A stretch of 64,000 nucleotides of DNA from Stappia sp. TSB10P1A (GTDB lineage: Bacteria > Pseudomonadota > Alphaproteobacteria > Rhizobiales > Stappiaceae): positions 62,001 to 126,000 of the forward strand of contig NZ_FYAU01000020.1 in NCBI RefSeq assembly GCF_900185725.1, read 5' to 3'. Below, piece after piece: positions 28,142-44,377 of this stretch (its first letter is position 1; each line of letters opens with the position of its first letter). The translations under genes were made by a program, and so were the position numbers. Below the pieces are notes generated by a model. It did no database searches, was not told the origin of the DNA, and saw only the letters and a program-made list of their open reading frames with translations.

Positions 28142-29119
28142 ATGTTGAACAAAGGCGAACAGATCGCTCAGGAGATGTTCCTGGAGGCGCAACTGCCCGG
28201 GCAGCCGCGCCAGAAGGTCATCGACAGTCCGCATCTGCACAAGATGCAAAGGATGCACTTCTTCCTGTTTGACGTGTTGCCGATCTTCGGAACCGTCTGC
28301 GCGATCGTGCTGCTGTTCTTCCATCCGATCTCGGTGCTGGATCTGACGCTGTTCGCCGTTTTCTGGGCGCTGAGCGGGCTCGGCATCTCGATCGGCTATC
28401 ACCGTCTCTTCACCCATCGCAGCTTCAAGGCCTCGGCGCCGGTTCGCGCGGCTCTCGGCATCTTCGGGTCGATGGCCGGGCAGGGTGGGGTGATCTCCTG
28501 GACGGCGATGCACCGCAGGCACCATGAACTGGGCGACCAGGAAGGCGACCTGCACTCGCCGAACCTGCATGGCAGCGGTCTGAAGGGGAAGCTGAAGGGC
28601 TTCATCCATGCGCATTTCACCTGGATGGTGGCGCATCCCTATCCCAATGTCGTCCACTACGCGCCGGACCTGCTCAAGGACCGCGTGATCATCTGGGTGA
28701 ACCGGCACTACTACACCTGGATCGTGCTCGGCCTGCTGATCCCGACCGCCATCGGCGGGCTCGTCACCCAGAGCTGGATGGGCGCGCTGACGGGCTTCCT
28801 GTGGGGCGGCATGGTGCGCATGTTCGTGGTCGAGCAGGGCATCTTCGCGCTCAACTCGCTCTGCCACCTGATCGGCCGGCGCCGCTTCGCCACCGACGAC
28901 CAGAGCACCAATATCGGCTGGCTCGCCCCCTTCATCTTCGGCGAGTCCTGGCATCACAACCACCACGCCTTTCCCGCCTCGGCGTCCTTCGGGCTCGCCT
29001 GGTACCGCATCGATCCCGGCTACTGGGTCATCTGCTTGCTCGCTCTCCTCGGTCAGGCCTGGGACATCAAGGTCCCGTCGAAGGAGCAGATCAAGCGCCG
29101 GGAAATCCGCAGCGCCTGA
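28142..29119 (+). CDS. Membrane fatty-acid (acyl-ACP/acyl-CoA) desaturase
   Basis: Di-iron membrane desaturase of the delta-9/acyl-lipid type, 325 residues. The three histidine boxes are HRLFTH (87-92), HRRHH (124-128) and HHNHH (271-275), plus several membrane helices. The ATG at 28142 has GGAGGAAGAG upstream; longer in-frame starts lack a site. It is the first gene of the cluster and is followed 32 bp later by a stand-alone ACP. Together with the downstream FAAL this resembles the JamABC-type set, in which a desaturase acts on ACP-bound acyl chains. Its regioselectivity is unknown. Confidence 0.9.
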   Translation: MLNKGEQIAQEMFLEAQLPGQPRQKVIDSPHLHKMQRMHFFLFDVLPIFGTVCAIVLLFFHPISVLDLTLFAVFWALSGLGISIGYHRLFTHRSFKASAPVRAALGIFGSMAGQGGVISWTAMHRRHHELGDQEGDLHSPNLHGSGLKGKLKGFIHAHFTWMVAHPYPNVVHYAPDLLKDRVIIWVNRHYYTWIVLGLLIPTAIGGLVTQSWMGALTGFLWGGMVRMFVVEQGIFALNSLCHLIGRRRFATDDQSTNIGWLAPFIFGESWHHNHHAFPASASFGLAWYRIDPGYWVICLLALLGQAWDIKVPSKEQIKRREIRSA

Positions 29120-29151
29120 CCCCGCGCACCGAAGAAAGAGGAGGAGTTTCC

Positions 29152-29439
29152 ATGGATCACGTGCAGATTGCGGAAAAGGTCGATGAGGCCGCCGTCTTTG
29201 CCTGGCTCAAGACCTACATCTCCAACGTGCTCGGCATGGACCAGGCATCGATCAAGGGCAGCGACGGGCTCGACTCCCTCGGCCTCGACTCCGCCCTGAC
29301 CACGGCGCTGGCGATGGACCTGGAGACCTGGCTCGGCGTCGAGATCCCGCTCGCGATCCTGTTCGAGGCGGAAACGCTCGACAACATCGCCACCGGCGTC
29401 GCCCGCGAGGCCGAACGCCAGCACGTCACCGCAGGATGA
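29152..29439 (+). CDS. Stand-alone acyl carrier protein
   Basis: Carrier of 95 residues with the phosphopantetheine attachment motif GLDS (Ser47) in LDSLGLDSALTTALAMDLE. It has a longer N-terminal helix than fatty-acid-synthase AcpP. It is preceded by GAGGAGG and stands between the desaturase and the methyltransferase. I infer it carries the acyl chain loaded by the FAAL at 32557 while the tailoring enzymes act. Confidence 0.9.
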   Translation: MDHVQIAEKVDEAAVFAWLKTYISNVLGMDQASIKGSDGLDSLGLDSALTTALAMDLETWLGVEIPLAILFEAETLDNIATGVAREAERQHVTAG

Positions 29440-29449
29440 GGGCCAGGCG

Positions 29450-30337
29450 ATGAAGACCGAACAGCCCGACTACGGCGGCTCGATGTCCGCTGTCCAGTAC
29501 CACTACGATGTCAGCCGCGACTTCTACCGCCTGTGGCTTGATGAATCGCTCACCTATTCCAGCGCCCTGTGGGAGGGCGAGGACGACACGCTCGCCGCCG
29601 CCCAGCAGCGCAAGATCGACCATCACCTGCGCGAGGCACGGGTGGAGAGGGCGGAATCCCTGCTTGATGTCGGTTGCGGCTGGGGTGCGCTGGTGCGCAA
29701 GGCCAGCAGCTATTCCGGCCTCAAGCGGATCGTCGGCCTGACGCTCAGCGAGGACCAGGCGGACAACGTGCGCGGCTTCGGCATCCCGCAGATCGAGGTG
29801 CGGCTGGAGAGCTGGACCCAGCACAAGCCGGACCGGCCCTATGACAGCATCATCTCCGTCGGCGCCTTCGAGCATTTCGCCAAGCCCGAGGACAGCCGCG
29901 AGGTGAAGATCGCGACCTATCGCGACTTCTTCGCCACCTGCGCCGCGTGGCTGGCGCCGGGCGGGCGCATGTCGCTGCAGACCTTCGTCTACGGCACCAT
30001 GCGCAACGAGGAAGCCAGCCAGTTCATCAACGAGGAGATCTTCCCGGCCGCCGACCTGCCGCGGCTGGACGAGATCGCCGCGGCGGCGGACGGGGTGATG
30101 GAGGTGACCTATCTGGTCAACCATCGTCTGCATTATGCCCGCACCTACGATTCCTGGGCGCGCAACCTGCGCCGGCGGCGCGACGAGGCGGTGAAGCTGG
30201 TCGGCGAGACCGTCACCGAGCGCTACGAGCGCTATCTCAAGCAGACCTCCATCGGCTTCTACACCGGCAAGATCGGGCTGCTGCGCATCTCGCTGCGCCC
30301 GACCGACCGGCCCGTGTCCGAACTGTCGAGGATGTGA
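29450..30337 (+). CDS. Cyclopropane-fatty-acid-synthase-family SAM methyltransferase
   Basis: SAM-dependent enzyme of the CFA/mycolic-acid cyclopropane synthase family, 295 residues. The substrate-side motif VQYHYDVSRDFYRLWLDE (about 15-32) and the SAM loop LLDVGCGWGAL (71-81) are clear; SVGAFEHF is the post-I region. It lacks the extra N-terminal domain of E. coli Cfa, so it is closer in size to the mycolic-acid and small-molecule types. In this cluster it may add a methylene or methyl group to the desaturated chain, or methylate another position. Confidence 0.85.
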   Translation: MKTEQPDYGGSMSAVQYHYDVSRDFYRLWLDESLTYSSALWEGEDDTLAAAQQRKIDHHLREARVERAESLLDVGCGWGALVRKASSYSGLKRIVGLTLSEDQADNVRGFGIPQIEVRLESWTQHKPDRPYDSIISVGAFEHFAKPEDSREVKIATYRDFFATCAAWLAPGGRMSLQTFVYGTMRNEEASQFINEEIFPAADLPRLDEIAAAADGVMEVTYLVNHRLHYARTYDSWARNLRRRRDEAVKLVGETVTERYERYLKQTSIGFYTGKIGLLRISLRPTDRPVSELSRM

Positions 30338-30461
30338 GGGGAGCCGGGTCGGCGTCCTTCGCCGGCCCGCATCGGCATCACCACCGGCGGCGCCAGCCGT
30401 GCCGCCGGACGCCCCCGCCTTGTCTCCGTCTTGCCCGTGTCCAGGATCAGGGAACAGCGTC

Positions 30462-31754
30462 ATGACCGTCACCGCCCCAGCAGCAGATCCCCGTGCAGGC
30501 AGCGCCGCTGCCCGCGCGCCGGCCGGCCAGGACATCGTCTTCAACCCGCTCGATCCGGCGTTCCGCGCCGACCCGTATCCTGTCTATGCGCGGCTGCGCC
30601 GCGAGGCGCCGGTGCTGCGCACCAAGGGCACCTTGGTCCTGTCGCGCTATGAGGACGTGCTCGCCGTCATGCGCAGCCGCAAGTTCAGCGTCCGCCTGAT
30701 CCCCGACACGGTGGTCAAGCAGGCTGCCCGGCTGCGGTTCGAGGACTACGGGCAGATGCTGCGCTTCCTGCAGACCTCCATCGTCTTCACCGACAATCCG
30801 GAGCACATGCGACTGCGCCGGCTGGTCAACCAGGCCTATTCCAACGAGGCGATCGCCGCTCTCCTGCCGGTCCTGACAGAGCGGATCGAGCGGCTGCTCG
30901 CCGCCCATGCCGCGCGCGGCGGCTGCGATATCATGGCCGATATCGCCGCGCCGCTGCCGATCGACGTGCTGTGCGACTGGATGGCGGTCGAGGAGGCGGC
31001 CCGCCCCGGCATTGCCGAGAAGGTCCATGCCGTGCGCTACCTGCTCGACCCCGGCATGATGAACCGCGCCGCCTTCCAGAAAGCGGCCAGCAGCATGCGC
31101 GAGCTGACCGGCTATTTCGCCGAGCACGCGGCCCGCATCCGCAAGTCGGGCAAGGACACGATCATCGCCCGCCTGTGCGAGGCGCAGGTCGACGGCGCCG
31201 GCCTCACCGAGGAGGAGATCGCCTTCGCCTGCGTGATGTCCTTCGTCGCCGGCACCGAGACCACCCAGTGCCTCATCGGCAATCTCGTCGATGCCATCCT
31301 CGACCATCGCGAGCAGTTCGAAGCCCTGGGCGAGGACGAGGCCGCGATCCGGGCGGCGATCGAGGAGGTGACGCGCTACGAGACGCCGCTGCAGTTCACC
31401 AAGCGCCTTGCGGTGGAGGACTGCACCGTCGGCGGCATCGACATTGCCGCCGGCGAGCAGATCCTGCTCTGCCTCGGCTCGGCCAATCGCGACGGCGAGG
31501 TGTTCGAGGATGCGGACGCGTTGCGTCTCGACCGCAAGGGCACGGCCCATATCGGCTTCGGCTTCGGCATGCATTCCTGCCTCGGCGGTCTGCTCGCCCG
31601 CGTCCAGGGCGCCGCCTTCCTCAAGCTGCTGATGGCCGGCTATGGCGACCTTGAGCGGGTCGATCCCGAGCGCCGCTGGCAGGCCAACAGCCTGATCCTG
31701 CGTGGCCCTGAGCGCCTCGATATCCGCTTCTCCAGCCAACGGGGGACGGCGTGA
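30462..31754 (+). CDS. Cytochrome P450
   Basis: Soluble bacterial P450 of 430 residues. It shows the I-helix oxygen-activating motif AGTETT, the K-helix ExxR in EEVTRYE and the haem loop FGFGMHSCLGG with Cys373 as the thiolate ligand. The start at 30462 follows AGGGAA; the first 25 residues are low-complexity. No ferredoxin partner is encoded nearby. Its position inside the cluster suggests hydroxylation or further oxidation of the carrier-bound or finished lipid. Confidence 0.93.
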   Translation: MTVTAPAADPRAGSAAARAPAGQDIVFNPLDPAFRADPYPVYARLRREAPVLRTKGTLVLSRYEDVLAVMRSRKFSVRLIPDTVVKQAARLRFEDYGQMLRFLQTSIVFTDNPEHMRLRRLVNQAYSNEAIAALLPVLTERIERLLAAHAARGGCDIMADIAAPLPIDVLCDWMAVEEAARPGIAEKVHAVRYLLDPGMMNRAAFQKAASSMRELTGYFAEHAARIRKSGKDTIIARLCEAQVDGAGLTEEEIAFACVMSFVAGTETTQCLIGNLVDAILDHREQFEALGEDEAAIRAAIEEVTRYETPLQFTKRLAVEDCTVGGIDIAAGEQILLCLGSANRDGEVFEDADALRLDRKGTAHIGFGFGMHSCLGGLLARVQGAAFLKLLMAGYGDLERVDPERRWQANSLILRGPERLDIRFSSQRGTA

Positions 31755-32581
31755 GCGCGCAGGCGGAGATCTTTGCCAGCGACCGGGCACGTGCCGCTGT
31801 CGACCTTTACGTCTTCCACCATGCCGGTGGCAGCCGCCACTCCTTCGCCGCCTGGCAGTCGAAGTTTCCCGCCGAGGTCGCCCTGCACCGGGTGCAGCTT
31901 CCCGGCCGCACGGCGGAAACCTGCGACGTCCTGCCGAAATGGGCCGGCGCGCTCGTTCCCGGCCTCGTCCGCAATTTCCTGCGATCGCGCGCCGGATCGC
32001 GGCGGCCTTTCGTCTTCTACGGTCACAGCTTGGGTGCGCTGATCGCCTTCGAACTGACCCGCTTCCTGCGGCTGATCGGTGAGGAGATGCCGGCCGGTCT
32101 CGTCGTCGCCAGCCGCCGCGCGCCCCATTGCGAGCTGAGCCATGGCGAGCTCTTCAGCCTGCCCGACGACGACCTCGTCGCCGCTCTGCATCGCCTCGGC
32201 GGCGTGCCGGCACATATGCGCGGCAAGGAGGACTGGCTGCGCCAGGTGCTGCCGGTGATCCGCGCCGACCTGCGGCTCTCCGACATCTACCGCTATGCCG
32301 GCCAGCCGCCGCTCGATTGTCCGATGCTGGCGGTGAAGGGCGTCGACGACCCGATCATGTCGCTGCGCGAACTCATCGAGTGGTCGGCCCACACCACCGG
32401 CAATTTCACCTGCGGCGAGTTGCCCGGGGCGCATTTCTTCGATGCCGACGGGACGCGCCGCCTCGAGGCGCTCCTCGTCAGGACCCTGGCCCGCTGGGCC
32501 GAGTTCGACCCCACCGGCATGCCCGCCCGTCCCATCACCGTTCCGGAGGTAAGACCATGCTCGACAAGAGCCGGGATCTGA
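31751..32581 (+). CDS. Type II thioesterase (GrsT/TycF-like alpha/beta hydrolase)
   Basis: External thioesterase of the kind that clears misloaded carrier proteins or releases products in NRPS/PKS pathways. It is 276 residues long, with FHHAGGS near the start, the nucleophile elbow GHSLGA (Ser93) and a late GAHFF histidine. The GTG start overlaps the P450 stop, and its 3' end overlaps the FAAL start by 25 nt, so the three are tightly coupled. Confidence 0.9.
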   Translation: MSAQAEIFASDRARAAVDLYVFHHAGGSRHSFAAWQSKFPAEVALHRVQLPGRTAETCDVLPKWAGALVPGLVRNFLRSRAGSRRPFVFYGHSLGALIAFELTRFLRLIGEEMPAGLVVASRRAPHCELSHGELFSLPDDDLVAALHRLGGVPAHMRGKEDWLRQVLPVIRADLRLSDIYRYAGQPPLDCPMLAVKGVDDPIMSLRELIEWSAHTTGNFTCGELPGAHFFDADGTRRLEALLVRTLARWAEFDPTGMPARPITVPEVRPCSTRAGI

Positions 32582-34356
32582 GCAGCATCAGCGTTCCCAC
32601 CCTGTGGGGCCTTCTCGATGCCTATGCGGCCGCGCGGCCCGATGACCGGGCCTTCCTCTATCTCGGGCCGGAGAATGTCGAACAGGAGGCGCTCACCTAC
32701 GCCGAACTGCACCGGCTGGCGCGCATCTACGGCCAGCGGCTGCGGCAGCACACCCGCCCCGGCGACCGGGCGATCCTGATGTTCCCGACCGGCCTTGCCT
32801 TCGTCGTCGCCTTCTTCGCCTGCCATTTCGCCGGCGTGGTGCCGGTGCCGATGGTGCCGCTGAAGGGCGCGCGCCTGCGCAACACCGTGCATGCCATCGC
32901 CGAGAACGCGGCCGCCGCCGTGGTGTTCAGCAATCTCGACCAGGCCGCGCTGGTCCATGCCCAGCTCAGCCCGCTGCCGAGCTATCGCGGTGCCGCCTTC
33001 ATCGCCATCGATCTCGACGAGACAGGCGCAGCGCCGACGGCCGACCCGCATGAGGCGCTGCCGCACGAGCTCGCCTTCATCCAGTACACGTCCGGCTCCA
33101 CCTCGGTGCCGCGCGGCGTCATGGTCAGCCACGCCAATCTTGCCGCCAATCTGGAGATGATGGCCGAGGCCTTCGGCAATGACGACAGCCCGACCTATGT
33201 CGGCTGGGCGCCGCTCTATCACGACATGGGGCTGATCGCGAACGTGCTGGAGCCGTTCTATCTCGGCACGTTCTGCATCCTGATGTCGCCCAATCTCTTC
33301 GCCCACCGGCCCTGGCTGTGGCCGAAGGCGATCAGCGACTATCGCGCGGTGGTCAGCGGCGGACCGAACTACGCCTATGACCTGTGTATCGAGCGCCGCG
33401 ACCTGATCCTCGATGCCGGGCTCGACCTGTCGTCCTGGAAGCTCGCCTTCAACAGCGCCGAGCCGGTGCGCGCCGGTACGCTTCAGCGTTTCAGCGAGGC
33501 CTTTGCCGGCATCGGCTTCCGCCCGCAGACCTTCTATCCCTGCTTCGGCATGGCGGAGGCGACGCTGCTGATCACCGGCGGCAGCCGGTCCGAGGTGCCG
33601 ATCCTGCGCCCGGTCAGCCGCGCCGGCCTTGCGCGGGGCTCGGCCCTCGCGCCGATCGATGAGAAGGACGAGACGCAGGCGATCGGCTGCGGCCGGGCGC
33701 TGCGCGACGAGACGCTGCGCATCGTCGACCCGGAGACTTTCGCCGCCATGCCCGATGGCGAGATCGGCGAGATCTGGGTTGCCGGCCCGCATGTGCCGCT
33801 CGGCTATTTCGACAATGAGGAGGTCTCGCAGCGCACCTTCCATGCCCGTATCGCCGGCGAGGAAGACGGCGAGCGCTACCTGCGCACCGGCGATCTCGGC
33901 TTCGTGCTCGACGGCGAGCTCTATGTGACGGGCCGCCACAAGGACCTGATCATCGTCCGCGGCCACAACGTCTATCCGCAGGACATCGAATATGTGGCGG
34001 AGCGCGCCTGGCCGGGGCTCAAGACCAATTCCGGCGCCGCCTTCGCGATCGAGGACCCCGACAGCGGCATCCAGACGCTGGTGCTCGCCCAGGAAGTGCG
34101 GATGGGCAATCGCCAGTCGATCGACATCGACGCGGCGACGCGGGCGATCCGCCAGGAGATCCTGCGCGAGGCCGACGTGACCTTCCACAAGATCGTCCTG
34201 CTGGAGCCGGGCTCCATCCCCAAGACGTCGAGCGGCAAGATCCGCCGGGCCGAAACCCGCAAGCGCTATCTCGACGAGACGCTGGCGATCCTTATGAGGC
34301 GGGCGGCGCCGGCCTCCGACACCGAGCCCGCGAAGGCGGTGAGCGGCGACGACTGA
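32557..34356 (+). CDS. Fatty acyl-AMP ligase (FAAL)
   Basis: Adenylates a free fatty acid and transfers it to a carrier protein rather than CoA. At 599 residues it has the long FAAL layout. The AMP-binding loop is YTSGSTSVPRGV (177-188), followed by WAPLYHDMGLI, YPCFGMAEATL, TGDLGFV, GRHKDLIIVRGHNVYP and the C-terminal SGKIRR lysine motif. A strong site CCGGAGG precedes the ATG. The likely partner is the ACP at 29152; the NRPS T domain is a second possible acceptor. Confidence 0.93.
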   Translation: MLDKSRDLSSISVPTLWGLLDAYAAARPDDRAFLYLGPENVEQEALTYAELHRLARIYGQRLRQHTRPGDRAILMFPTGLAFVVAFFACHFAGVVPVPMVPLKGARLRNTVHAIAENAAAAVVFSNLDQAALVHAQLSPLPSYRGAAFIAIDLDETGAAPTADPHEALPHELAFIQYTSGSTSVPRGVMVSHANLAANLEMMAEAFGNDDSPTYVGWAPLYHDMGLIANVLEPFYLGTFCILMSPNLFAHRPWLWPKAISDYRAVVSGGPNYAYDLCIERRDLILDAGLDLSSWKLAFNSAEPVRAGTLQRFSEAFAGIGFRPQTFYPCFGMAEATLLITGGSRSEVPILRPVSRAGLARGSALAPIDEKDETQAIGCGRALRDETLRIVDPETFAAMPDGEIGEIWVAGPHVPLGYFDNEEVSQRTFHARIAGEEDGERYLRTGDLGFVLDGELYVTGRHKDLIIVRGHNVYPQDIEYVAERAWPGLKTNSGAAFAIEDPDSGIQTLVLAQEVRMGNRQSIDIDAATRAIRQEILREADVTFHKIVLLEPGSIPKTSSGKIRRAETRKRYLDETLAILMRRAAPASDTEPAKAVSGDD

Positions 34357-34438
34357 GGGAACTGACGATGAGGCGAAGGAGGGGGAGGGGCCGCCCGCGG
34401 CGCCCGACCTTCGCACCCAGGCGAGGTGAGACGGGACC

Positions 34439-34864
34439 ATGTCGGAGGACAAGCAGCCGGTGATGTCGCGCGAGGAGATCGCGGCGGTGATCGGCAAGAC
34501 GCCGTTTGCGATCTGGGTCGGGGCGAGCCTCGACACCTATCGCCACGGCGAGGTCGAGATCAGCATCCCGATGCGCCGCGAACTGACCCAGCATCACGGC
34601 TTCGGCCACGGCGCGATCATCGGGTTCCTGGCCGACAGCGCCTGCGCCTGGGCGGCCGCCTCCGTCGCCGGCGATGTCGTCACCTCCGAATACAAGCTGA
34701 ACATGTTCGCGCCCGCCGTCGGCCAGACCCTCGTCGGCCACGGCCAGGTGCTCCACTACGGCGGCCGCCATGCCGTCTGCCGCGCCGATGTCTACGCCCT
34801 TGCCGGCTCGCGCAAGAAGCTGGTGGCGACCGCGCTCGCCACGATCTTCCAGGTCAAGCCTTAG
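34439..34864 (+). CDS. PaaI-family hotdog thioesterase
   Basis: Hotdog-fold acyl thioesterase of the PaaI family, 141 residues. The active-site segment HHGFGHGAIIGFLADSA contains the expected small-residue turn and the acidic residue of the family. It is the second, structurally unrelated thioesterase in the cluster. It may hydrolyse a CoA or ACP thioester intermediate. Its TAG stop lies in a partial copy of the palindromic element seen after hypE. Confidence 0.82.
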   Translation: MSEDKQPVMSREEIAAVIGKTPFAIWVGASLDTYRHGEVEISIPMRRELTQHHGFGHGAIIGFLADSACAWAAASVAGDVVTSEYKLNMFAPAVGQTLVGHGQVLHYGGRHAVCRADVYALAGSRKKLVATALATIFQVKP

Positions 34865-34879
34865 AGCGAGTTTCCGATC
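34862..34879 (+). repeat. Partial copy of the hypE-end palindromic element
   Basis: TAGAGCG-AG-TTTCCGATC matches TAGAGCG-C-TTTCCGATC of the element at 27057-27073 with one small indel, then diverges. In both places the repeat supplies the TAG stop of the upstream gene. It is too short to exclude chance. Confidence 0.35.
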
Positions 34880-34902
34880 CACCCCAACCAGGAGTTCGCG
34901 CC

Positions 34903-35928
34903 ATGCAGCATGTTGAAAGCACTCTCGGTCCCGACATTCCGATCGTGGTCTGGTCGCCCGCGGACGGTGCCCCGGTCGGCCTTGCGGAGCTGACGGCCTA
35001 TCTGGCCGATGCCAAGGACCGGATCTCCGCGCAGCTCGACGAGAACGGCGGCGTCCTGCTGCGCGGGTTCGATTGCGTCCACACCTCCGGCGACTATCAG
35101 AAGGTGCTCGACGTGGTCGCGCCCGACCTGATGGACTATGTCGGCGGCACCTCGCCGCGCAAGGTCGTCAACGGCCGCATCATGACCGCGACCGAGATCC
35201 CCGGCTCCTACTCGATCCCGCTGCACCAGGAGATGTCCTACACCGACAATTCGCCGGACCGGATCTCGTTCTTCTGCGAGCGTCCGCCGCAAGAGGGTGG
35301 CCAGACCACCATCGGCGATATGCGCGCCATCACCCGGGCGATCGACCCGAAGGTCCGCGAGCGCTTCGAGGCCCATGGCGGTGTCCAGCTCTGCCGCAAC
35401 CTGCCGCTGCCCGAGAAGGTCGCCTCCCGGCCGGGCGTGCCCAAGACCTGGCACGAGGTCTTCGCCACCGACCGGCGCGAGGAGGCGGAGAAGGTCGCGG
35501 CGAAGTCCGGCTGGCGCTACGAGTGGCTCGACGACGGATCGATGCAGCTCTGGCAGGAGGTGCGCCCGACGACCCGGCAGCATCCGCGCTCCGGCGACGA
35601 TGTCTGGTTCAACCAGGTCCACATCTTCTCGCCCGTCTCGGCGCTGAAATGGGCCCGGCTCGACGGCCGCACCGAGGCCGCCGACCGGCTGGCGCGGGCG
35701 CTGGAGGAGGCGCCGCAGCTTCTCGACCACATGCGCTATGGCGATGGCAGCGAGATCTCGGCCGAGGACGTGCTGCACATCTATGACGTGCTGCTGGAAA
35801 ACGAGAAGCCGGTGCAGTGGCGGAAGGGCGACGTGCTCGTCCTCGACAACATCCTCGTCGCGCATGGCCGCAAGCGTTTTTCCGGCGACCGCAGCGTGCT
35901 CACCGCCTTGATCCAGCACGCCCACTGA
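34903..35928 (+). CDS. Fe(II)/2-oxoglutarate dioxygenase, TauD/SyrP-like
   Basis: Non-haem iron oxygenase of the TauD/TfdA superfamily, 341 residues, most like the SyrP-type members found in NRPS clusters. The iron triad is HQE (His108, Glu110) and the distal His321 in VAHGRKRFSG, with the arginine for 2-oxoglutarate just after. An acidic residue is kept in the triad, so it should hydroxylate rather than halogenate. A typical SyrP task is hydroxylation of a T-domain-bound amino acid; the real substrate is unknown. Confidence 0.87.
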   Translation: MQHVESTLGPDIPIVVWSPADGAPVGLAELTAYLADAKDRISAQLDENGGVLLRGFDCVHTSGDYQKVLDVVAPDLMDYVGGTSPRKVVNGRIMTATEIPGSYSIPLHQEMSYTDNSPDRISFFCERPPQEGGQTTIGDMRAITRAIDPKVRERFEAHGGVQLCRNLPLPEKVASRPGVPKTWHEVFATDRREEAEKVAAKSGWRYEWLDDGSMQLWQEVRPTTRQHPRSGDDVWFNQVHIFSPVSALKWARLDGRTEAADRLARALEEAPQLLDHMRYGDGSEISAEDVLHIYDVLLENEKPVQWRKGDVLVLDNILVAHGRKRFSGDRSVLTALIQHAH

Positions 35929-35992
35929 AACGAGAGCCTGCGGCCCGGTGGCCTGTCCGCCGGACCCGCCCCCATCCGAACGGGAGACAGCC

Positions 35993-36802
35993 ATGCTGAA
36001 GACGGTTTCCAGCACCAAGTCCGGCGAGGCACAGGACGAGATCGCCGCCGAGGAGCGGCGGCTGCGCGTGCAGCTTGCCGAGTTCTACCATCTCGTCGCC
36101 TATCTCGGCTGGACCGAGATGATCTTCAACCACATCTCGCTGCGCGTGCCCGGCCCCGACCGTCACTACCTCGTCAATCCCTTTGGCCTGCACTACGAGG
36201 AGATCACCCCGGACAACCTCGTCAAGGTCGATGTCGAGGGGAACCTGGTCGAGCCGTCGGACTATCCGGCCAACCGGACGGGCTTTGCCCTGCACGGGGC
36301 GATCCACGAGGCGCGCGACGACATCCACTGCATCGCCCACACGCACACGACGCCGATCTCGGCCATCGCGCTGAAGGAGGGCGGCTTCACCTATGACGAC
36401 TTCTACGGGGCGCAGCTCTTCGGCCGGGTCGGGTATCACGCCTTCGAGGGGGTGACGGTCTTTGCCGACGAGCGCCCGCGCATGGTCGCGAGCCTCGGCG
36501 ACAAGAGCGTCCTGGTGCTGCGCAACCACGGCATCGCGGTCGGCGAACGCGACGTGCCGCGCACCTTCTGGCTGCTCTACAACGCGCAGCGCGCGGCCGA
36601 GATCCAGTGCCAGGCCGGCATGCTGCCCGGCGCCAACACCCCGCTCACCGACGAGGTGCGCCACCGCAGCGCGGCAGCGGCGGAAGAGCTGATCGCAGGC
36701 GATGCCTTCGCCGCCAAGCTCTTCGACGCGATGATGCGCAAGGTGCGGCGCGACCGCGGTCCGCTCTGGGCCAGGGACACCGGCACCGACCGGCTGGAAT
36801 AG
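35993..36802 (+). CDS. Class II aldolase/adducin-family protein
   Basis: Zinc-dependent class II aldolase/adducin fold, 269 residues. The metal motif HTHT occurs in HCIAHTHTTPISA and the later histidine in LRNHGIAVGERD. FNHISLRVPG and PFGLHYEEITP are standard early segments. This family includes aldolases, epimerases and decarboxylating enzymes, and it appears in some natural-product clusters with undefined roles. Co-direction and spacing (64 bp after the dioxygenase) place it in the operon. Confidence 0.85.
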   Translation: MLKTVSSTKSGEAQDEIAAEERRLRVQLAEFYHLVAYLGWTEMIFNHISLRVPGPDRHYLVNPFGLHYEEITPDNLVKVDVEGNLVEPSDYPANRTGFALHGAIHEARDDIHCIAHTHTTPISAIALKEGGFTYDDFYGAQLFGRVGYHAFEGVTVFADERPRMVASLGDKSVLVLRNHGIAVGERDVPRTFWLLYNAQRAAEIQCQAGMLPGANTPLTDEVRHRSAAAAEELIAGDAFAAKLFDAMMRKVRRDRGPLWARDTGTDRLE

Positions 36803-36859
36803 GCGGCGCCCGTGGTCGGCGAGACAGTCCGATCTCGAAATCGCGGAGGATCAGGTCCC

Positions 36860-37804
36860 GTGTCACTGCAACAGAGAAACAATCCCCCAACCCGTCCAGG
36901 GGCCCTGTCCCAGCGGGAGCGGGCGGCAGGGTGGGCGAGTACCCATCGGGTCCATCTCGGCATGCCGCATCTGGCCTTCAGCGGCCTGTCCGAAGCCTGG
37001 TTGCTGAAGGAACTGGGCCATCGCCACTGGATCCAGCTTGCGCGCATGGCCGAGCACGACTTCCCCGACTTCTACGACGAGGCGGGACACACGGTCTATG
37101 CCGCCTTCCGCTCGGTGCGGATCGAGGGCGCGCGCTTCGACCTTGCCAAGGAGAACGACACGCTGGTGATCCGCTCCAGCCTGTTCCGCCTGTCGCGCAC
37201 CCAGGTGCAAAGCGAGCACCGGCTCAGCATTGGCGGGGCGCTGCTCGGCATCGTGCGCATGGTCTCCGTCTTCGTGCATCGCAACGGCCAGACCTCGAAC
37301 CGCTCGGTGGTTCGGGTCGAGATCCAGGGTCTGCCGCCGGTCTCGCAGGCCAGCAAACCGGATCTGTCGGGCGTCGACGGCAACCTGTGGATCTGGGACG
37401 ACGGGGCTGCGGCCACCGCCGATCACCGGCCACAGCTCTTCTTTCCCTGTCCCTCGCAGGATTTCAACGGCGCCGGCTTTCTCTATTTCGCCAATGTGCC
37501 GGCCTTCGTCGACCGGGCGGAATGGAACGTCGATCCGGACTTTGCCCGCAACGCCATCACCCGCTGGCGCAGCGTCGCCTATCACGCCAACATCGACCCC
37601 GGCGAGGCGATCTCCATCGAACTCGTCGACTTCGAGCGCGACGATCTGCTGTGGCGCCATCGCGGCCGTGTCACCCGCGCCACCGACGGCAAGCATATGG
37701 CCGACGTCCTGAGCGTGCGCAGCCGCGTCGAGGTCGCCGGCTCGAGGCGCGCGCCTGCGCATCGGGAGGTCGAGTGCCGCGACCGGTCGGATTGCCCGGG
37801 CTGA
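36860..37804 (+). CDS. LnmK-like double-hotdog biosynthetic protein (Pnap_2097-type, tentative)
   Basis: Unusual 314-residue protein. The segment HRVHLGMPHLAFSGLSEAWLLKELGHRHW (two short blocks) recalls the LnmK and Pnap_2097 family of biosynthetic proteins, which have a double hotdog fold; LnmK is an acyltransferase/decarboxylase. That match is from memory of the motif, so the family is tentative. The GTG at 36860 is chosen for the GGAGGA site upstream; a GTG at 36812 would add 16 residues. The last 25 residues are Arg/Cys-rich. It closes the first block of the cluster. Confidence 0.65.
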   Translation: MSLQQRNNPPTRPGALSQRERAAGWASTHRVHLGMPHLAFSGLSEAWLLKELGHRHWIQLARMAEHDFPDFYDEAGHTVYAAFRSVRIEGARFDLAKENDTLVIRSSLFRLSRTQVQSEHRLSIGGALLGIVRMVSVFVHRNGQTSNRSVVRVEIQGLPPVSQASKPDLSGVDGNLWIWDDGAAATADHRPQLFFPCPSQDFNGAGFLYFANVPAFVDRAEWNVDPDFARNAITRWRSVAYHANIDPGEAISIELVDFERDDLLWRHRGRVTRATDGKHMADVLSVRSRVEVAGSRRAPAHREVECRDRSDCPG

Positions 37805-38127
37805 GCCGACCGCCGGCGGGGCGACCGGACAGGGCATTGGGAGATTGCCGGCGCGGCCCGCGGCCATGCGTATTCGGGTACTCGGCCTCCCGCCATCTTG
37901 CGTCCGGTCAGTCGCGATTTCCCTGCGTGGTTGTCACATTGCAAATTTTACATCGCTACGTTGTCGTGCTACCCCTCTCCTGGTCCCACCGAACCGCGGA
38001 CACTCTGTAAGCTCATGCCGTTTCAAGGCAAATCCGTCCGGATGGCGGAAGCGGGCAGGCCGCTGCGGGCCATATTGCGTTCGTCCCGTTCTGGCTGTGG
38101 GTCGGCCTCGCCCTGTGGGAGATATTG
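37805..38127 (+). other. Gene-free stretch before the NRPS
   Basis: These 323 bp contain no credible gene. A short AT-rich patch around 37930-37955 includes TTGTCA as a possible -35, but I see no good -10 at the right distance. A separate promoter for the NRPS-exporter block is possible but not shown. Confidence 0.4.
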
Positions 38128-41100
38128 ATGACACAGTCCGTGCTGCGGCGGATCGAGGAACTGGCCTTCGATCAGGGCGACCGCGTCGCGATGGAGGAGG
38201 GGCCGCGCCGACTGACCTATGCCGGTCTGCACGAGGCGATCCGCAGGGCCGGCCGCCAGGGCCTTGCCCGCTCCGCTCCCGGGCTTGTCGGGATCAACGG
38301 CCGCCCGTCGATCGAGGCGGGCGTCGGCCTTCTCGCCGCAATGGCCTCGGGCGATGTCGCCGTGCCCGTCGACGAGCGCCTGCCGCTCGCCCGCCAGCAG
38401 GCGCTGCTCGACTGGTGCGACAGCTTGAGCGACCAGCGGGAGATCGCCGCCCTTGTCGCCGATCTCGACGGCAAGGTGCCGCTGCCGGATCCCTCGAGCG
38501 GTATCGCGCCGCGCGCTGCGCGTCAGGCGGCCTATATCGCCTTCACCTCCGGCACCACCGGCGAGCCAAAGGCCATCGAGGGCACGATGGAGGGCATCGA
38601 CCATTTCATGGCCTGGCAGTCGGGCCTCGTCGCCAGCTTCTGCACCGCGCCGCGCGTGTCCTGGCTGACGCCGCTCTCCTTCGACGTGATGTATCGCGAC
38701 CTCTTGCTGCCGCTGGTGACCGGCGGCACGCTGGTCATTCCGGATGTCGAGGCCGGGTTCAACATCGCTTCCGGCTGGCACTGGCTGGCGGCGCAGGGGA
38801 TCGACATCGCCCATGTGGTGCCCTCCATCGTTTCCGCCTGGCTGACCTCCGGCGATCTGCCGCAGCTCGACGTCCGCGCCCTGTTCTTTGCCGGCGAACC
38901 TTTGAAGGTGCCGCTCGTTGCCGCTCTGCGTCGCCGCTATGCCGGACGCATCTACAATCTCTACGGCCCCTCGGAAGGCACGATGGCGAAGTTCTGTCGC
39001 CTGATCGATGAAGGCTGCCCGACGCGCGGCGCGCTCTATCCGGTCGGCCGTCCCATCGGCGAGGACGTGTCCTTCGACCTTGCCGAAAGCGGCGAGATCG
39101 TGCTGGCGTCGCCCTACCTGACCAACGGTTACCGGCGCCGTGACGGGACGGCCGATCCGTTCCCGCAAGCCCGGCCGGGCTGGTACGCCTATCACACGGG
39201 AGACCGGGGCGAGGTTATCGGCGACGATCTCTTCCTGCTCGGCCGCCTCGACACCCAGATGAAGATCAACGGCATCCGCATCGAGGCCGGCGAGGTGGAA
39301 CGCCTTGCCGAGGCTTGCGCGGGCGTCACGCGCGCGGTTGCCGTCAAGCTGTCGCCGCCCGAGGTGCCGGGCGAGACGCTCGCCCTGTTCTGGCAAGGCG
39401 CGCCGGACCTGCAACCGGCCCTGCGGGAGCGGCTCTCCGATGCCCTGCATCCGGCGGTGATGCCCTCGCTTTACCGGCGGATCGAGAGTTTCCCCGTCAC
39501 CTTGAACGGCAAGGTCGACCGCGCAGCCCTCGCGGCGCAGGCGGCTGCGGCGCTTGCCGAGGAACAGACGGGCCTTGCCGAGACGGGTGAGGGCGACCCG
39601 GCGGAGCGTCACGTTCAGCAGGTGATCTCGCAGGTGCTGCGCCGGCCCTGCGGCCTCGATACGGATTTCATCGGCCTTGGCGGCAATTCGCTGATGTTCG
39701 GCCTGATCGCCCTGCAACTGGAAACCGCGTTCGGCATCGCCATTCCTCAGCCGCGCTTCTACGAGGCCGGCACGCCGCGGGCGATTGCGGCCTGGTTCCT
39801 CGAAAATGGCGGGCAGCTCCGCCAGACTGCGGACAACGGGAATGCGGGCGGCGCCCCCGCCTTGCCGGACGCGGCGGAAGAGGATTATCGGCCGCTCACC
39901 AGCCGCCAGCAGACGATCTTCGACATCTTCTGCAAGGACATTTTCGGCGCGGCCATCAACATGATCCTGCAGATGCCGTTCCGCGCCGCCGAGGCCGAGC
40001 GGTTGAAGCGCGTCCTGCTGCGCCTGACCGAGCTCAACGACTGCTTCCACCTGCGCTTCCGCCGCGACGGCGAGACGCTGCTGCAGACCATGGTTTCGAC
40101 CGGCTTCGGTCCTGGCGATTTCGAGGAGGTCGCGGCGGACGATGCCGAGTTCGACCGGCTTTCCACCGCCTTCGGCGAGCGGACCTTCGATCTGGGCGGC
40201 GAGCGGCCCTTTCGGATCCTGCTGCTGACCAGCCCGTCGGGTGCCGGCCGCCTCGTCCTGTCGATGCACCACCTCATCAGCGACGGCATGTCGCGCGAAT
40301 ATATTCGCCGCGACATCGAGGACGCGCTGGCCGGGGCGCCGGTGCCGGTGCGCGGGTCGTTCCGCTCGGTCCTTACCGCCGAGACCGGCGACAGCCGCGC
40401 CCGCGCCACCGCCTTCTGGCATGCGCAGATCGCGGCCGCGCCGCCGATGCCGCGCTTCGTCTCCGGCCTCGATCGGAAGAACCTGTCGGCACGCATGCTC
40501 ACCGTGCCGCTCGGCGTCGATCACGATGCCCTGCTGGCCCATGCCCGGGCGCTCAATGCCAGCGTCTTTCCCTATCTGATGGCGCATTTCTACCGGGCGA
40601 TGGCCGCCCATTGCGGTGTCTCGGACCTGATCATCCGGGTGACGACCCACGGGCGCTACCGCCCCGAACTGCTGGACACGCTGGGCCTGCTGTTCAGCGC
40701 CGTGCCGCTGCGGATCGACGGGGCGGATCAGAGCACGCCGGCCATCGTCGCCGGCCTGTCGCGTCTGCTGGAGGCCGCCCGCGAGCACCAGGATGTCTGC
40801 TTCCGCGATCTCGCCCGCCTGATCGGCGAGCCGGACGACGCGCATCTCCACCCGGTCACCGGTATCAGCTTCGCGCTCGACGGCTATGACGTCAGCGAGG
40901 CGATGCCGGCCGGCCTGTCCCTCGACGCGATCCCGCAGGTCGTCCGGGCCTCGCTGCCGCATGAGGCGCTGGTCTTCGCCCGCACCTATAGCGACGGCTG
41001 CGTGCTGCGGTTCCTCTACCGCTCCAAGGCCTTTTCCGACGCCGATATCCGGTCCATTGCCGGCCACATGCGCGAGACGATCGCGGAGGAACTGGCGGAG

Positions 41101-41148
41101 GCGGCACAAGCGCAGGAAGCGGTCCTCTGCGCCGTGCGGCGGGTTTGA
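38128..41148 (+). CDS. Single-module NRPS of order adenylation-thiolation-condensation
   Basis: Chain of 1006 residues. Adenylation domain about 1-480: FTSGTTGEPKAIEG, LSFDVMYRD (the Asp that usually binds an amino group is kept), NLYGPSEGT, YHTGDRG and NGKVD. Thiolation domain about 500-560 with LGGNSL, Ser521. Condensation domain about 580-990 with the intact catalytic MHHLISDG (His714-His715). No epimerase, reductase or thioesterase domain is present. The C domain at the end is uncommon. It may join the amino acid on its own T domain to an acyl chain from the ACP or to a free nucleophile. The start is the ATG after GGGAG; TTG 3 bases before is an alternative. Confidence 0.93.
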   Translation: MTQSVLRRIEELAFDQGDRVAMEEGPRRLTYAGLHEAIRRAGRQGLARSAPGLVGINGRPSIEAGVGLLAAMASGDVAVPVDERLPLARQQALLDWCDSLSDQREIAALVADLDGKVPLPDPSSGIAPRAARQAAYIAFTSGTTGEPKAIEGTMEGIDHFMAWQSGLVASFCTAPRVSWLTPLSFDVMYRDLLLPLVTGGTLVIPDVEAGFNIASGWHWLAAQGIDIAHVVPSIVSAWLTSGDLPQLDVRALFFAGEPLKVPLVAALRRRYAGRIYNLYGPSEGTMAKFCRLIDEGCPTRGALYPVGRPIGEDVSFDLAESGEIVLASPYLTNGYRRRDGTADPFPQARPGWYAYHTGDRGEVIGDDLFLLGRLDTQMKINGIRIEAGEVERLAEACAGVTRAVAVKLSPPEVPGETLALFWQGAPDLQPALRERLSDALHPAVMPSLYRRIESFPVTLNGKVDRAALAAQAAAALAEEQTGLAETGEGDPAERHVQQVISQVLRRPCGLDTDFIGLGGNSLMFGLIALQLETAFGIAIPQPRFYEAGTPRAIAAWFLENGGQLRQTADNGNAGGAPALPDAAEEDYRPLTSRQQTIFDIFCKDIFGAAINMILQMPFRAAEAERLKRVLLRLTELNDCFHLRFRRDGETLLQTMVSTGFGPGDFEEVAADDAEFDRLSTAFGERTFDLGGERPFRILLLTSPSGAGRLVLSMHHLISDGMSREYIRRDIEDALAGAPVPVRGSFRSVLTAETGDSRARATAFWHAQIAAAPPMPRFVSGLDRKNLSARMLTVPLGVDHDALLAHARALNASVFPYLMAHFYRAMAAHCGVSDLIIRVTTHGRYRPELLDTLGLLFSAVPLRIDGADQSTPAIVAGLSRLLEAAREHQDVCFRDLARLIGEPDDAHLHPVTGISFALDGYDVSEAMPAGLSLDAIPQVVRASLPHEALVFARTYSDGCVLRFLYRSKAFSDADIRSIAGHMRETIAEELAEAAQAQEAVLCAVRRV

Positions 41149-41280
41149 CGGTGGCCGGAGCGCCGCGCATCCCTGCCGAGCACCGCGTTAATCGCCCCAG
41201 GGCCAGCGAAAAATGCTAGTTTTCCGCAGGATGCCGTGGCAAGCGGATATCAGGTGATGCACAGCGGTCGGGACTGAGAC

Positions 41281-43011
41281 TTGCGCAAGGACACATCGAG
41301 GACGGATCCCCTTGCGGGCCCTACGGCGGTGGACGGGGTCTTCCGCGCGGTGCGCTCAGCGCTGTTCGGTGTCGCGCTGGTCAGCCTGCTGGTCAATCTG
41401 CTGATGCTGACCGGCCCGCTCTACATGCTGCAGGTCTATGACCGGGTCCTCGCCAGCGGGTCGGTTCCCACGCTCCTGGTGATCAGCGGCTTCGCCCTTG
41501 TGCTCTATGCCGTCTTCGGCCTGCTGGAGGGCCTGCGCTCGCGCATCCTCTCGCGCATCGGCCAGCGCATCGACGCGCGGCTGTCGGGCCTCGCGTTCAT
41601 CGTCTCCAGCCGGCTGCCGCTGCGCCTGGGCGCGGGCGCGGCAAAGCTGCGACCGGTGCAGGATCTCGACGCGGTCCGCACCTTCATGTCCGGCCCCGGC
41701 CCGTCGGCGATCTTCGACCTGCCGTGGATGCCGGTCTATTTCGCCCTGCTCTTTCTGTTCCATCCGCTGCTCGGCTGGCTCGCCATCGGCGGCGCGGTGC
41801 TGATCTGCATCCTGATCGGCCTCAACGAGGCGACCTCGCGCAAGCCGGTCTCTGAGGCGGCGCGGGCCTCCAGCCGCCGCGCCGCGGTGGAAGAAGCCGG
41901 CCGCCGCAACGCCGAGGCGCTCGGCGCCATGGCGATGGAAGGCGCCCTGATGCAGCGCTGGGAGCGCGAGAACGAGGCCTTCCTGGACGTACAGCGCCGG
42001 GCGCAGGACTGGTCCGGCTTCTTCGCCACTGCCATCAAGACCGTGCGCTTCCTGTTGCAGTCGGCGGTGCTCGGCCTCGGCGCCTGGCTCGCCATCCTGC
42101 ACGAGGTGTCGCCGGGCGTCGTCATCGCCGGTTCGATCCTCACCTCCCGTGCGCTCGCCCCGGTGGAACAGGCGGTCGCCCACTGGCGATCCTTCGCCGC
42201 CGCCCGTCTCGGCCGCCGGCGCCTGCGCGAGGTCTTCGCCAAGCTCGCCGACGCCGACATGGAGCGCCTGGAACTGCCCCTGCCGCAGCGCGGGCTCACT
42301 GTCGAGCACCTGGCCTGCGGCCCCGCCGGCATGAACCGGCCGGTGGTGCAGGGGGTCGCCTTCGAGCTTGCCGCCGGCGACGGCCTCGGCATCATCGGCC
42401 CCTCCGGTTCGGGCAAGTCGACGCTCGCCCGCGCCCTGGTCGGCCTGGCGCCGCCGCTGCACGGGGCGGTGCGCCTCGACGGCGCGGAACTGTCGCAATG
42501 GCCGCCGGCCCGCCGTGGCCGCATCGTCGGCTACCTGCCGCAGGACGTGCAGCTCTTCGACGGCACGGTGACGGAGAACATCGCCCGCTTCGAGCCCGAT
42601 GTGGAGGCCGAGGCGGTGATCGAGGCCGCGCGCATGGCCGACATCCACGACTTCGTCACCGGCCTGCCGGAGGGCTACAACACGCTGATCGGCTCGGAAG
42701 GCATGATGCTGTCGGGCGGGCAGCAGCAGCGCATCGCGCTGGCCCGAGCCCTGTTCCGCAAGCCCTTCCTGGTGGTTCTGGACGAGCCGAACTCCAATCT
42801 CGATTCCGACGGCGAAGCGGCGTTGACCAGAGCCATCCGCGAGATCCGCGCCGCCGGTTGCATTGTCGTCGTGATCGCCCACCGGCCGAGCGCCATTGCC
42901 GCAGTCGACAAGGTCCTGTGCCTGCGCGACGGGCGCATGGCCGCGTTCGGGCCGAAGGAGGAGGTGCTGAAGCGCGTCGTCGCCCCGGTGCCGCAGTCGG
43001 GGGTGGCGTGA
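41281..43011 (+). CDS. Type I secretion ABC transporter (PrtD family)
   Basis: Inner-membrane ATP-driven exporter of the PrtD/AprD type, 576 residues. An N-terminal membrane domain has about six helices (from LVSLLVNLLMLTGPLYMLQVYDRVLASGS on) without a C39 peptidase domain. The ATPase domain has Walker A GPSGSGKST, signature LSGGQQQR and Walker B LVVLDEPNSNLD. The start is TTG at 41281. Members usually export RTX proteins, none of which is nearby; it may instead serve the cluster's product. Confidence 0.92.
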   Translation: MRKDTSRTDPLAGPTAVDGVFRAVRSALFGVALVSLLVNLLMLTGPLYMLQVYDRVLASGSVPTLLVISGFALVLYAVFGLLEGLRSRILSRIGQRIDARLSGLAFIVSSRLPLRLGAGAAKLRPVQDLDAVRTFMSGPGPSAIFDLPWMPVYFALLFLFHPLLGWLAIGGAVLICILIGLNEATSRKPVSEAARASSRRAAVEEAGRRNAEALGAMAMEGALMQRWERENEAFLDVQRRAQDWSGFFATAIKTVRFLLQSAVLGLGAWLAILHEVSPGVVIAGSILTSRALAPVEQAVAHWRSFAAARLGRRRLREVFAKLADADMERLELPLPQRGLTVEHLACGPAGMNRPVVQGVAFELAAGDGLGIIGPSGSGKSTLARALVGLAPPLHGAVRLDGAELSQWPPARRGRIVGYLPQDVQLFDGTVTENIARFEPDVEAEAVIEAARMADIHDFVTGLPEGYNTLIGSEGMMLSGGQQQRIALARALFRKPFLVVLDEPNSNLDSDGEAALTRAIREIRAAGCIVVVIAHRPSAIAAVDKVLCLRDGRMAAFGPKEEVLKRVVAPVPQSGVA

Positions 43012-43012
43012 G

Positions 43013-44377
43013 ATGACCCACCCGATGGACAGGGCGGCAGACAGGACGACAAACGCAGCGTCAGGCACCGCCTCCGCGGTCGATCGCCAGTTGACCCGCA
43101 GCGTGCGCCGCCATCTGCTGGCCGCGCTGCTGGTCTCGGTGCTACTGGTCGGCGGCTTCGGCGGCTTTGCGGCGCTGGCGCGGATTTCCGGGGCGGTGGT
43201 CGCGCCCGCCACCGTCGTGGTGGAGAGCAATGTCCGCCGCATCCAGCATCAGGAAGGCGGGATCGTCCGCGAGATCGCCGTGGAGAACGGCGACCGCGTC
43301 GCCGCCGGCGACCTGCTCGTGCGCCTCGACGACACGGTGACCCGCGCCAATCTCGCCGTGGTCTCCCGCCAGCTCGTCGACCTCTATGCCCAGGAAGCCC
43401 GCCTTGTCGCCGAGCGCGACGGACTTGACGTCGCCACCTTCAACGAGCGCGCCCGCGGCCTTGCCGACGACGACCAGTTGGCTCTGGTCGAGGAGAGCCA
43501 GACGAGCCTGATGCAGGCGCGGCGCAACTCCATCGCCGGCCGCAAGGATCAGCTCGCCGAGCAGATCGTCCAGTATCGCAGCCAGATCGAGGGGCTGGAC
43601 TCGCAGCTTTCCGCCAAGGGTGAGGAGATTGCCCTGATCGAGGACGAACTGGTCGATCTCACCGCCTTGCTCGAAAAGCGTCTCGTCGCCCGCGCCCGCG
43701 TCACCGCCCTGCAGCGGGACCGCACCCGCCTCCAGGGCGAGCATGGCGGGCTCGTCGCCAAGATCGCCGAGGTCAACGAGGCGATCAGCGAGCGGCGCAT
43801 CCTGATGCTGCAGATCGACGAGCAGTCCCGCGCCGAAGTGCTGGAGCAGTTGCAGGACACCCGCGCCCGCATCGCCCGGCTGGAGGAGCAGAAGATCGCC
43901 GCCGAGGACCAGCTTCGCCGCGTCGAGATCCGCAGTCCGCATGCCGGGACGGTGCACCAGTTGGCCGTGCACACGGTCGGCGGCGTCGTCGCCTCCGGCG
44001 AGACCCTGATGTTGATCGTGCCGCAGGGCGATCTTCTGGTGATCGAGGCGCAGGTGCAGCCGCGCGACATCGCGCAGATCGTGCCGGGACAGCAGGCGCG
44101 CGTCCGCTTCCCCGGCTTCGACCAGCGCACGACGCCGGAACTCGCCGCCCATGTGCGCACCATTTCCGCCGACCTTGCCCGCGATGCCGTCACCGGCGCG
44201 CGCTATTACATCGTCCGTCTGGTCATTCCGGACGAGGAACTGTCGCGTCTCGACGGCGGGCTGCTGGTGCCCGGCATGCCGGCGGAAGCCTTCATCACCA
44301 CCGAGGAGCGCACGATCCTCTCCTATCTGGTGCGCCCGGTCACCGACCAGATCGCCCACGCCCTGCGCGAGCGGTAG
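43013..44377 (+). CDS. Type I secretion membrane-fusion protein (HlyD/PrtE family)
   Basis: Periplasmic adaptor that links the ABC exporter to an outer-membrane channel. It is 454 residues long with one N-terminal membrane helix (about 28-50), a lipoyl/barrel half around VVVESNVRRIQHQEGGIVREI, a long coiled coil (about 150-300) and a second barrel half with EIRSPHAGTVHQL. It starts 1 nt after the ABC stop. No TolC-type channel is in the window. Confidence 0.93.
   Translation: MTHPMDRAADRTTNAASGTASAVDRQLTRSVRRHLLAALLVSVLLVGGFGGFAALARISGAVVAPATVVVESNVRRIQHQEGGIVREIAVENGDRVAAGDLLVRLDDTVTRANLAVVSRQLVDLYAQEARLVAERDGLDVATFNERARGLADDDQLALVEESQTSLMQARRNSIAGRKDQLAEQIVQYRSQIEGLDSQLSAKGEEIALIEDELVDLTALLEKRLVARARVTALQRDRTRLQGEHGGLVAKIAEVNEAISERRILMLQIDEQSRAEVLEQLQDTRARIARLEEQKIAAEDQLRRVEIRSPHAGTVHQLAVHTVGGVVASGETLMLIVPQGDLLVIEAQVQPRDIAQIVPGQQARVRFPGFDQRTTPELAAHVRTISADLARDAVTGARYYIVRLVIPDEELSRLDGGLLVPGMPAEAFITTEERTILSYLVRPVTDQIAHALRER

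Follow-up and report, generated by a model that had tools for sequence, protein, structure and literature searches.

What is the product of a row of genes that sets fatty acid-tailoring enzymes beside a single-module peptide synthetase? The question is raised by a stretch of 64,000 nt from Stappia sp. TSB10P1A (contig NZ_FYAU01000020.1; the whole stretch is termed the window here), the source genome of which is 5.13 Mb in 64 contigs. Thirteen open reading frames (ORFs) on the + strand at 28142-44377 are confirmed by ORF reading and family searches. Eleven of these, from a desaturase gene to a nonribosomal peptide synthetase (NRPS) gene, form a cluster that is an uncharacterised variation on lines in which a fatty acyl-AMP ligase (FAAL) and an acyl carrier protein (ACP) are combined with an NRPS. 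The cluster probably, if by no means securely, makes an N-acyl amino-acid-type lipid.

A preliminary description of the locus had proposed a modified fatty acid joined to one amino acid by a FAAL/ACP-NRPS line, with a type I exporter pair as part of the cluster. The first portion of the proposal stands as the best-supported explanation, given the enzyme families, the gene order and the adenylation-domain pocket; the exporter portion is not supported. The thirteen co-directional genes and the enzyme families named there are borne out, the latter by family-model searches of the 13 products, and so are the overlaps among the P450, thioesterase and FAAL genes. If the N-acyl lipid interpretation is right, the locus represents a lipid pathway that is rare and clearly delimited, and whose product class can be tested for.

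Conserved gene order and distribution

The eleven genes from desaturase to NRPS (28142-41148) are found in one order in all six cluster-bearing Stappia genomes, out of 14 searched, and in Thalassospira marina CSC3H3, where a full copy with 51-74% identity per core gene is carried by the megaplasmid pCSC3H3. Chance does not account for a gene order shared by seven loci from two taxonomic orders, Hyphomicrobiales and Rhodospirillales. The pocket stretches of the NRPS adenylation (A) domain, read by hand, are identical in all seven orthologs, the whole NRPS being 51% identical between Stappia and Thalassospira. Because of this identity, one amino acid is probably common to all seven clusters.

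The cluster is rare and patchily distributed in marine Stappia. A dioxygenase search across the 14 Stappia genomes returns the same six carriers, one of which is Stappia indica SBBC 49 (L028). The LnmK-like protein belongs to a family with an existing NCBIfam name ('Pnap_2097 family', TIGR04099), which has matches in 10 of 101 relatives (nine above the cut-off) and in 6 of 385 class genomes (three above it), the source genome being counted in both samples. Eleven TIGR04099 loci were examined with their flanks; five, all from Stappia, hold the whole eleven-gene row in the same order, and in the remaining six none of the other core genes has an ortholog-level match. A contig collection, scanned non-exhaustively with two peptide patterns, yields 30 family loci. 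Three are these Stappia, and at the other 27 no other core gene is found at ortholog level within up to 10 kb per side (one locus, L047, is short on one side); apart from one 57-bit FAAL match, the non-ortholog matches there are to ABC domains of a generic kind. With 27 of 30 loci having the LnmK-like gene alone, this gene was rejected as a marker for full clusters.

The full gene set is sharply bounded, since the other plasmid dioxygenase records are far less alike: 86 of the 87 records in the plasmid collection are less than 60% identical, with 37% the most reached by the 24 of them that were listed. At E 1e-60 the dioxygenase (TauD) finds none of 384 other class genomes. Its gene was likewise rejected as a marker, only the source genome being returned among the 385. 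The CFA-type protein described below, used as a single query, has no match at 1e-60 among 397 others at phylum level.

A proposed pathway

We infer each reaction, the sequence of steps and the product from the genes themselves. The FAAL would activate a free fatty acid as the acyl-AMP and then load the dedicated ACP. On the ACP, a desaturase would put a double bond into the bound chain, a cyclopropane fatty acid (CFA)-type enzyme would add a one-carbon unit at the double bond to give a cyclopropane or a methyl branch, and a cytochrome P450 would oxidize the chain, with a type II thioesterase (TEII) to remove stalled chains. The A domain of the NRPS would load one amino acid on the thiolation (T) domain, and the C-terminal condensation (C) domain would join the T-bound amino acid to acyl-ACP supplied in trans. 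Dioxygenase, aldolase-family, LnmK-like and hotdog enzymes might act after this, on the amino-acid end or in release of the product, which LysE would export.

Lipid-side enzymes

The genes of this section and the next are all on the + strand. The membrane fatty-acid desaturase (28142-29119; PF00487, FA_desaturase, 1e-17) has three His boxes, which are kept in all seven aligned rows. The stand-alone ACP (29152-29439; PF00550, PP-binding, 2.4e-13) has the phosphopantetheine Ser, and its DS motif is kept in all eight aligned rows. It is followed by the CFA/CMAS-type methyltransferase (29450-30337; PF02353, CMAS, 2e-63), the nearest relatives of which are mycolic acid cyclopropane synthases (PDB 1l1e, 1.5e-42).

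The cytochrome P450 (30462-31754; PF00067, p450, 1.3e-21) has its Cys in the alignment and matches 145 distinct PDB sequences at E values of 1e-30 or below. Among the 60 matches listed is 3ejb, a biotin-biosynthesis P450 that binds ACP. The P450 gene overlaps that of the TEII (31751-32581; PF00975, Thioesterase, 4.6e-30) by 4 bp, and the latter overlaps the FAAL gene (32557-34356; PF00501, AMP-binding, 6.7e-61) by 25 bp, as checked from the coordinates.

Against the FAAL product, FAAL models rank about second to seventh, behind one NRPS/PKS (polyketide synthase) model, and all are under their own cut-offs. Within the best 25 models, the FAAL models score 276-382 bits (PRK05850 382, PRK09192 368, FadD32 356), the CoA-ligase models PRK07768 and PRK06187 score 289 and 136, and the remaining ones are below 130. 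Judged by these models, the adenylating enzyme is of the FAAL type and not of the CoA-ligase type.

A front-end module in other bacteria

The lipid half occurs as a unit elsewhere, in part also behind a LuxI gene, which supports the N-acyl lipid reading. A plasmid of Pseudonocardia alni has the order desaturase-ACP-CFA-P450-TEII-FAAL at 35-57% identity; the genes that follow there, as far as one for a type I PKS, are on the opposite strand. The same six-gene order is present on a Rhodococcus opacus plasmid, with a hotdog gene next in line, which is also the case in Stappia; the Rhodococcus TEII is known as an open frame with an alignment, not from tblastn. Tistrella mobilis has desaturase-ACP-CFA-FAAL, then acyl-CoA dehydrogenase-like and enoyl-CoA hydratase-like genes. 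The row in Polaromonas JS666 reads FAAL, transposase gene, desaturase, ACP, CFA, desaturase and PKS genes.

Two Sphingobium plasmids, pSRL2 and pTomMM15a, carry LuxI-ACP-CFA-FAAL (L060:10872-14752 and L078:8866-12627), with LuxI identified by PF00765 (89.0 and 85.8 bits against a cut-off of 24); no desaturase was found near these rows. LuxI here replaces the NRPS, and the CFA and FAAL proteins are 44-47% and 37% (B90A) identical, respectively, to those of the window.

At class level, the CFA profile A2 finds nine others at 1e-70. Two of the eight examined with flanks are Tistrella-type modules and six have no other module gene, two of these being on short pieces (6.5 and 13.3 kb); the ninth match, G262, was left out of the flank check. 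The module cases were drawn from the plasmids searched and from a single class sample, and represent no census. In a CFA tree the NRPS-linked rows group together (100/99), as do the LuxI-linked rows (100/100).

A review (PMC11631085) describes acyl-ACP as a substrate of acyl-homoserine lactone (AHL) synthases, and for this reason the Sphingobium module plausibly feeds an N-acylating enzyme, the role suggested above for the C domain in Stappia. This, together with the differing neighbours, suggests that the module acts as a supplier of tailored acyl-ACP to exchangeable end enzymes. A module found across phyla with exchangeable neighbours sets the Stappia cluster above an ordinary orphan cluster. 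If order has indeed been kept from Alphaproteobacteria to Actinomycetota in this way, the chemistry of one member informs that of the others.

A bolder idea, and a doubtful one, is that desaturase-ACP-CFA-type methylase-(P450-TEII)-FAAL is a portable device for methyl-modified acyl-ACP, plugged across phyla into an NRPS (Stappia, Thalassospira), LuxI (Sphingobium) or a PKS (Polaromonas, perhaps Pseudonocardia). In that case Stappia would be using its NRPS to make an analogue of a modified AHL, possibly as a signal. The LuxI version, if true, would predict methyl-branched or cyclopropane AHLs.

Amino-acid-side enzymes

A PaaI-type hotdog thioesterase (34439-34864; TIGR00369, 45.9 bits against a cut-off of 36.6; PDB 3e1e, 2.3e-18) precedes a TauD/clavaminate-synthase-like Fe/2-oxoglutarate dioxygenase (34903-35928; PF02668, TauD, 5.4e-30). 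In place of the common HxD, the dioxygenase has HQE; its best PDB matches are At3g21360 (1y0z, 3.1e-35) and 9yut (8.7e-33).

The dioxygenase bears on the question of whether the locus could be of the ScoA-E type and make an isonitrile lipopeptide. Isonitrile clusters such as ScoA-E and Rv0097-0101 share with Stappia the enzyme classes FAAL, ACP, thioesterase, 2-oxoglutarate dioxygenase and NRPS, and the dioxygenase has a weak PDB match to PvcB (E 0.011). PvcB acts in an isonitrile pathway and does not itself form the isonitrile. The HxE motif and the best PDB matches place the Stappia dioxygenase nearer other proteins, and none of its five PDB matches at E 0.1 or below is named an isonitrile synthase; the ScoE structure is presumably in PDB, and no direct comparison with ScoE enters into these five. 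The Stappia cluster also has extra lipid-tailoring genes, and we know of no place in an isonitrile pathway for the desaturase, CFA, P450, LnmK-like and aldolase-family genes. An isonitrile product is thus highly improbable, and this reading was rejected on the dioxygenase alone, with its HxE motif and with no named isonitrile synthase among its PDB matches.

The class II aldolase/adducin-family protein (35993-36802; PRK07044, 268.5 against a cut-off of 207) matches 3ocr (3.7e-51), TqaM (4.6e-20), NovR (7.7e-11; titled a decarboxylase) and also adducins in PDB. The position of Glu73, the catalytic residue of FucA, looks unconserved by eye in an ortholog alignment displayed without a FucA row.

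The LnmK-like protein (36860-37804, with an alternative GTG start at 36812) scores well above the cut-offs of both the Pnap_2097 model (TIGR04099, 272.9 against 125) and the LnmK model (TIGR04098, 226.3 against 100), and most other loci of the family are without the other core genes at ortholog level. A profile match to the LnmK structure 4hzn is at 1.5e-12. Among other members of the family, those at the loci L022 and L023 have a nitrilase-like frame close by, as judged by eye, and the matches H62, H85, H86 and H88-H90 overlap an annotation as MSMEG_0569-family oxidoreductase.

The single-module NRPS (38128-41148) has the domain order A-T-C (PF00501, PF00550 and PF00668, Condensation). The carrier Ser is present. 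The C-domain motif is MHHLISDG in the six Stappia and MYHLISDG in Thalassospira, i.e. HHxxxDG with the first His replaced by Tyr.

Limits of the unit

Where does the cluster end? A LysE-type exporter gene (27168-27791, - strand; PF01810, 1.2e-21) is divergent from the cluster and outside the range first given to it. At E 1e-30 the LysE gene is found in all six cluster-bearing Stappia genomes and in none of the eight others, and next to the Thalassospira cluster is a LysE gene with 56-57% identity. As a control, thiD is present in 14/14 Stappia. In the window, the NRPS gene is followed by genes for a PrtD-type type I secretion ABC transporter (41281-43011, + strand; TIGR01842, 684.5 against a cut-off of 510) and an HlyD-type adaptor (43013-44377, + strand; TIGR01843, 381.4 against 208.7).

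The case for the PrtD/HlyD pair as a dedicated exporter draws on its position directly downstream in the window and in three further Stappia genomes (L017, L019, L020), so that it is contiguous in four of six carriers. In the fifth, G008, about 8 kb of other DNA with mostly minus-strand frames (L074:2883-10902) lies between the NRPS and ABC genes, and the pair stays beside thiD. In the sixth, G003, the best ABC match (64% identical) is on another contig. Two cluster-free genomes have ABC matches of 65% (G007) and 50% (G001), and no PrtD/HlyD pair adjoins the Thalassospira cluster, whereas LysE is linked in all seven; linkage of the HlyD gene is the same as that of the ABC gene in the loci read. 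A dedicated PrtD/HlyD exporter is therefore improbable.

Because the linkage of the pair is inconstant and that of LysE is found in all seven loci, the proposed unit is eleven genes plus lysE, and the PrtD and HlyD genes are neighbours, not core. The preliminary description had set the limits at 28142-44377, with the type I exporter pair inside; neither point is upheld, in that a gene outside this range tracks the cluster and the pair within it does not do so constantly.

A further question is how the genes are transcribed. A 323-bp gap (37805-38127) between the LnmK-like and NRPS genes contains a block conserved in 6/6 Stappia, and for this reason a single 13-gene transcript is not assured. 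Conserved patches are also found upstream of the desaturase gene (five of six Stappia aligned). These blocks before the desaturase and NRPS genes may be promoters. A sigma-70 scan gave no standard site before either gene. Terminator-like sites are fewer than in shuffled sequences (three against a mean of 6.2).

Points against the interpretation and an alternative

Several findings weigh against the N-acyl lipid interpretation or parts of it. The bicarbonate-site residues of CmaA1, Cys35, Glu140, His167 and Tyr232, are retained in part by the CFA-type enzyme: in alignments to 1l1e, 1tpy and 1kp9, Glu140 and Tyr232 are kept, Cys35 is replaced by Ser and His167 by Gln. With these two active-site residues missing, ring formation cannot be assumed, and the enzyme could possibly give a methyl product rather than a ring. 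The Gln is found in 13/13 module CFAs and also in one stand-alone CFA (alone_L091); it is thus a mark of the subfamily and no proof of module function. Ser is at the Cys35 position in the Stappia, Thalassospira and Sphingobium CFAs, and Cys in those of Pseudonocardia, Polaromonas, Rhodococcus and Tistrella. Five of the 12 inner branches of the CFA tree are open forks, which leaves the branching between groups open, and a single origin of the module is not established.

Similar reservations apply to other members. Tyr80 of the LnmK-like protein is invariant in 31/31 rows, and a LnmK Tyr aligns there, presumably the active-site Tyr62 as counted by hand only; this Tyr sits in a weakly aligned N-terminal stretch (10.3 bits, i-Evalue 2.8). 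The A-domain code, DVRHFALMAK by hand, is not canonical. The nearest of the codes compared is that for Ser, with 5/10 positions alike, a likeness too weak for a prediction of the amino acid. No phosphopantetheinyl transferase was found in the source genome with the Thalassospira query, in a search without a positive control. The gap before the NRPS gene may split the transcript. Kinship confounds the LysE tally in Stappia and weakens it, five of the six carriers being closely related; the copy in Thalassospira lends the tally strength.

It should also be pointed out that the C domain follows the T domain, and the T-bound residue might just as well serve as its donor to some other nucleophile. 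This raises the question of whether the NRPS is instead an amino-acid platform, where A-T would hold a residue to be oxidized by the dioxygenase, with the terminal C passing it to a separate alcohol or amine, the chain and the amino acid being joined as an ester or via a third part. Besides the position of C after T, two other features fit such a platform, the extra conserved block ahead of the NRPS gene and the location of some plasmid dioxygenase relatives within annotated NRPS/condensation-domain genes (H4 and H25 among 25 listed). However, acyl-ACP is the usual donor for N-acylation, and FAAL and ACP would supply it; in addition, no other candidate for an acceptor gene is conserved across the seven loci. 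A platform of this kind is a possibility to be kept in mind, but an unlikely one.

Relation to known systems

The preliminary description knew of no characterised cluster with this gene set, and none was found in literature, family and structure searches, antiSMASH and BiG-SCAPE not being among the programs run. Judged by titles and passages, the literature searched has no description of the cluster or of the front-end module. The closest in concept are perhaps the FAAL/ACP-initiated lipopeptide lines of the jamaicamide JamABC type. These also have a FAAL-activated free fatty acid, a dedicated ACP and on-ACP desaturation. The Stappia cluster differs in adding a CFA-type methyltransferase, a P450 and a hotdog enzyme to the start unit, and in having a single A-T-C NRPS without a PKS, plus the LnmK-like and aldolase-family proteins.

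Labrenzia is presumably akin to the Stappiaceae. In passages of PMC6213206, a locus of Labrenzia sp. 011 resembles the Stappia cluster in its CFA-type genes, proposed there to serve medium-chain cyclopropane fatty acids. That locus has two CFA synthase genes with aminotransferase and chorismate mutase genes, and the main text does not use the word NRPS (PMC6213206); it was set aside as a match, given this difference in gene content. A cyanobacterial halogenated glycolipid cluster, as outlined in parts of PMC10849952, is unrelated.

For the genus, sections of the Stappia quadratibracata paper (PMC12997852, 2026) present an antiSMASH and BiG-SCAPE analysis of 17 Stappia assemblies, with 181 biosynthetic gene clusters in 52 families and 22 singletons. 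According to these sections, only two Stappia families are linked to MIBiG, those for sesbanimide and ectoine (PMC12997852); the 181 may include the present cluster. The carrier S. indica SBBC 49 is named in the tree legend of that paper.

Gene calls and neighbouring elements

Eleven of the 13 ORFs passed a filter based on G+C content by codon position. The two not listed, ACP and dioxygenase, have mechanical ORFs that begin too far upstream. Start codons were picked by hand; for the LnmK-like protein, dioxygenase, FAAL, P450 and ACP, the queries used in family searches are a few codons off these choices. Large antisense ORFs exist in the window.

The Thalassospira cluster has a phosphopantetheinyl transferase gene and ilvD upstream (L057:1515-4298); the transferase could prime the carriers of that cluster. 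In the window, the cluster has hydrogenase genes on one side and thiamine genes on the other. The hydrogenase maturation gene hypE (26037-27059, + strand, 415 bits) is just upstream. On the other side is a PIN-domain gene (44389-44832, - strand; PF01850) with a small overlapping upstream frame at about 44817-45062 (- strand), which is antitoxin-like by eye; the PIN gene is matched only in L017 of ten loci compared. Beyond it, a thiamine pyrophosphate riboswitch (45204-45307, + strand, 76.5 bits) is found upstream of thiD (45375-46310).

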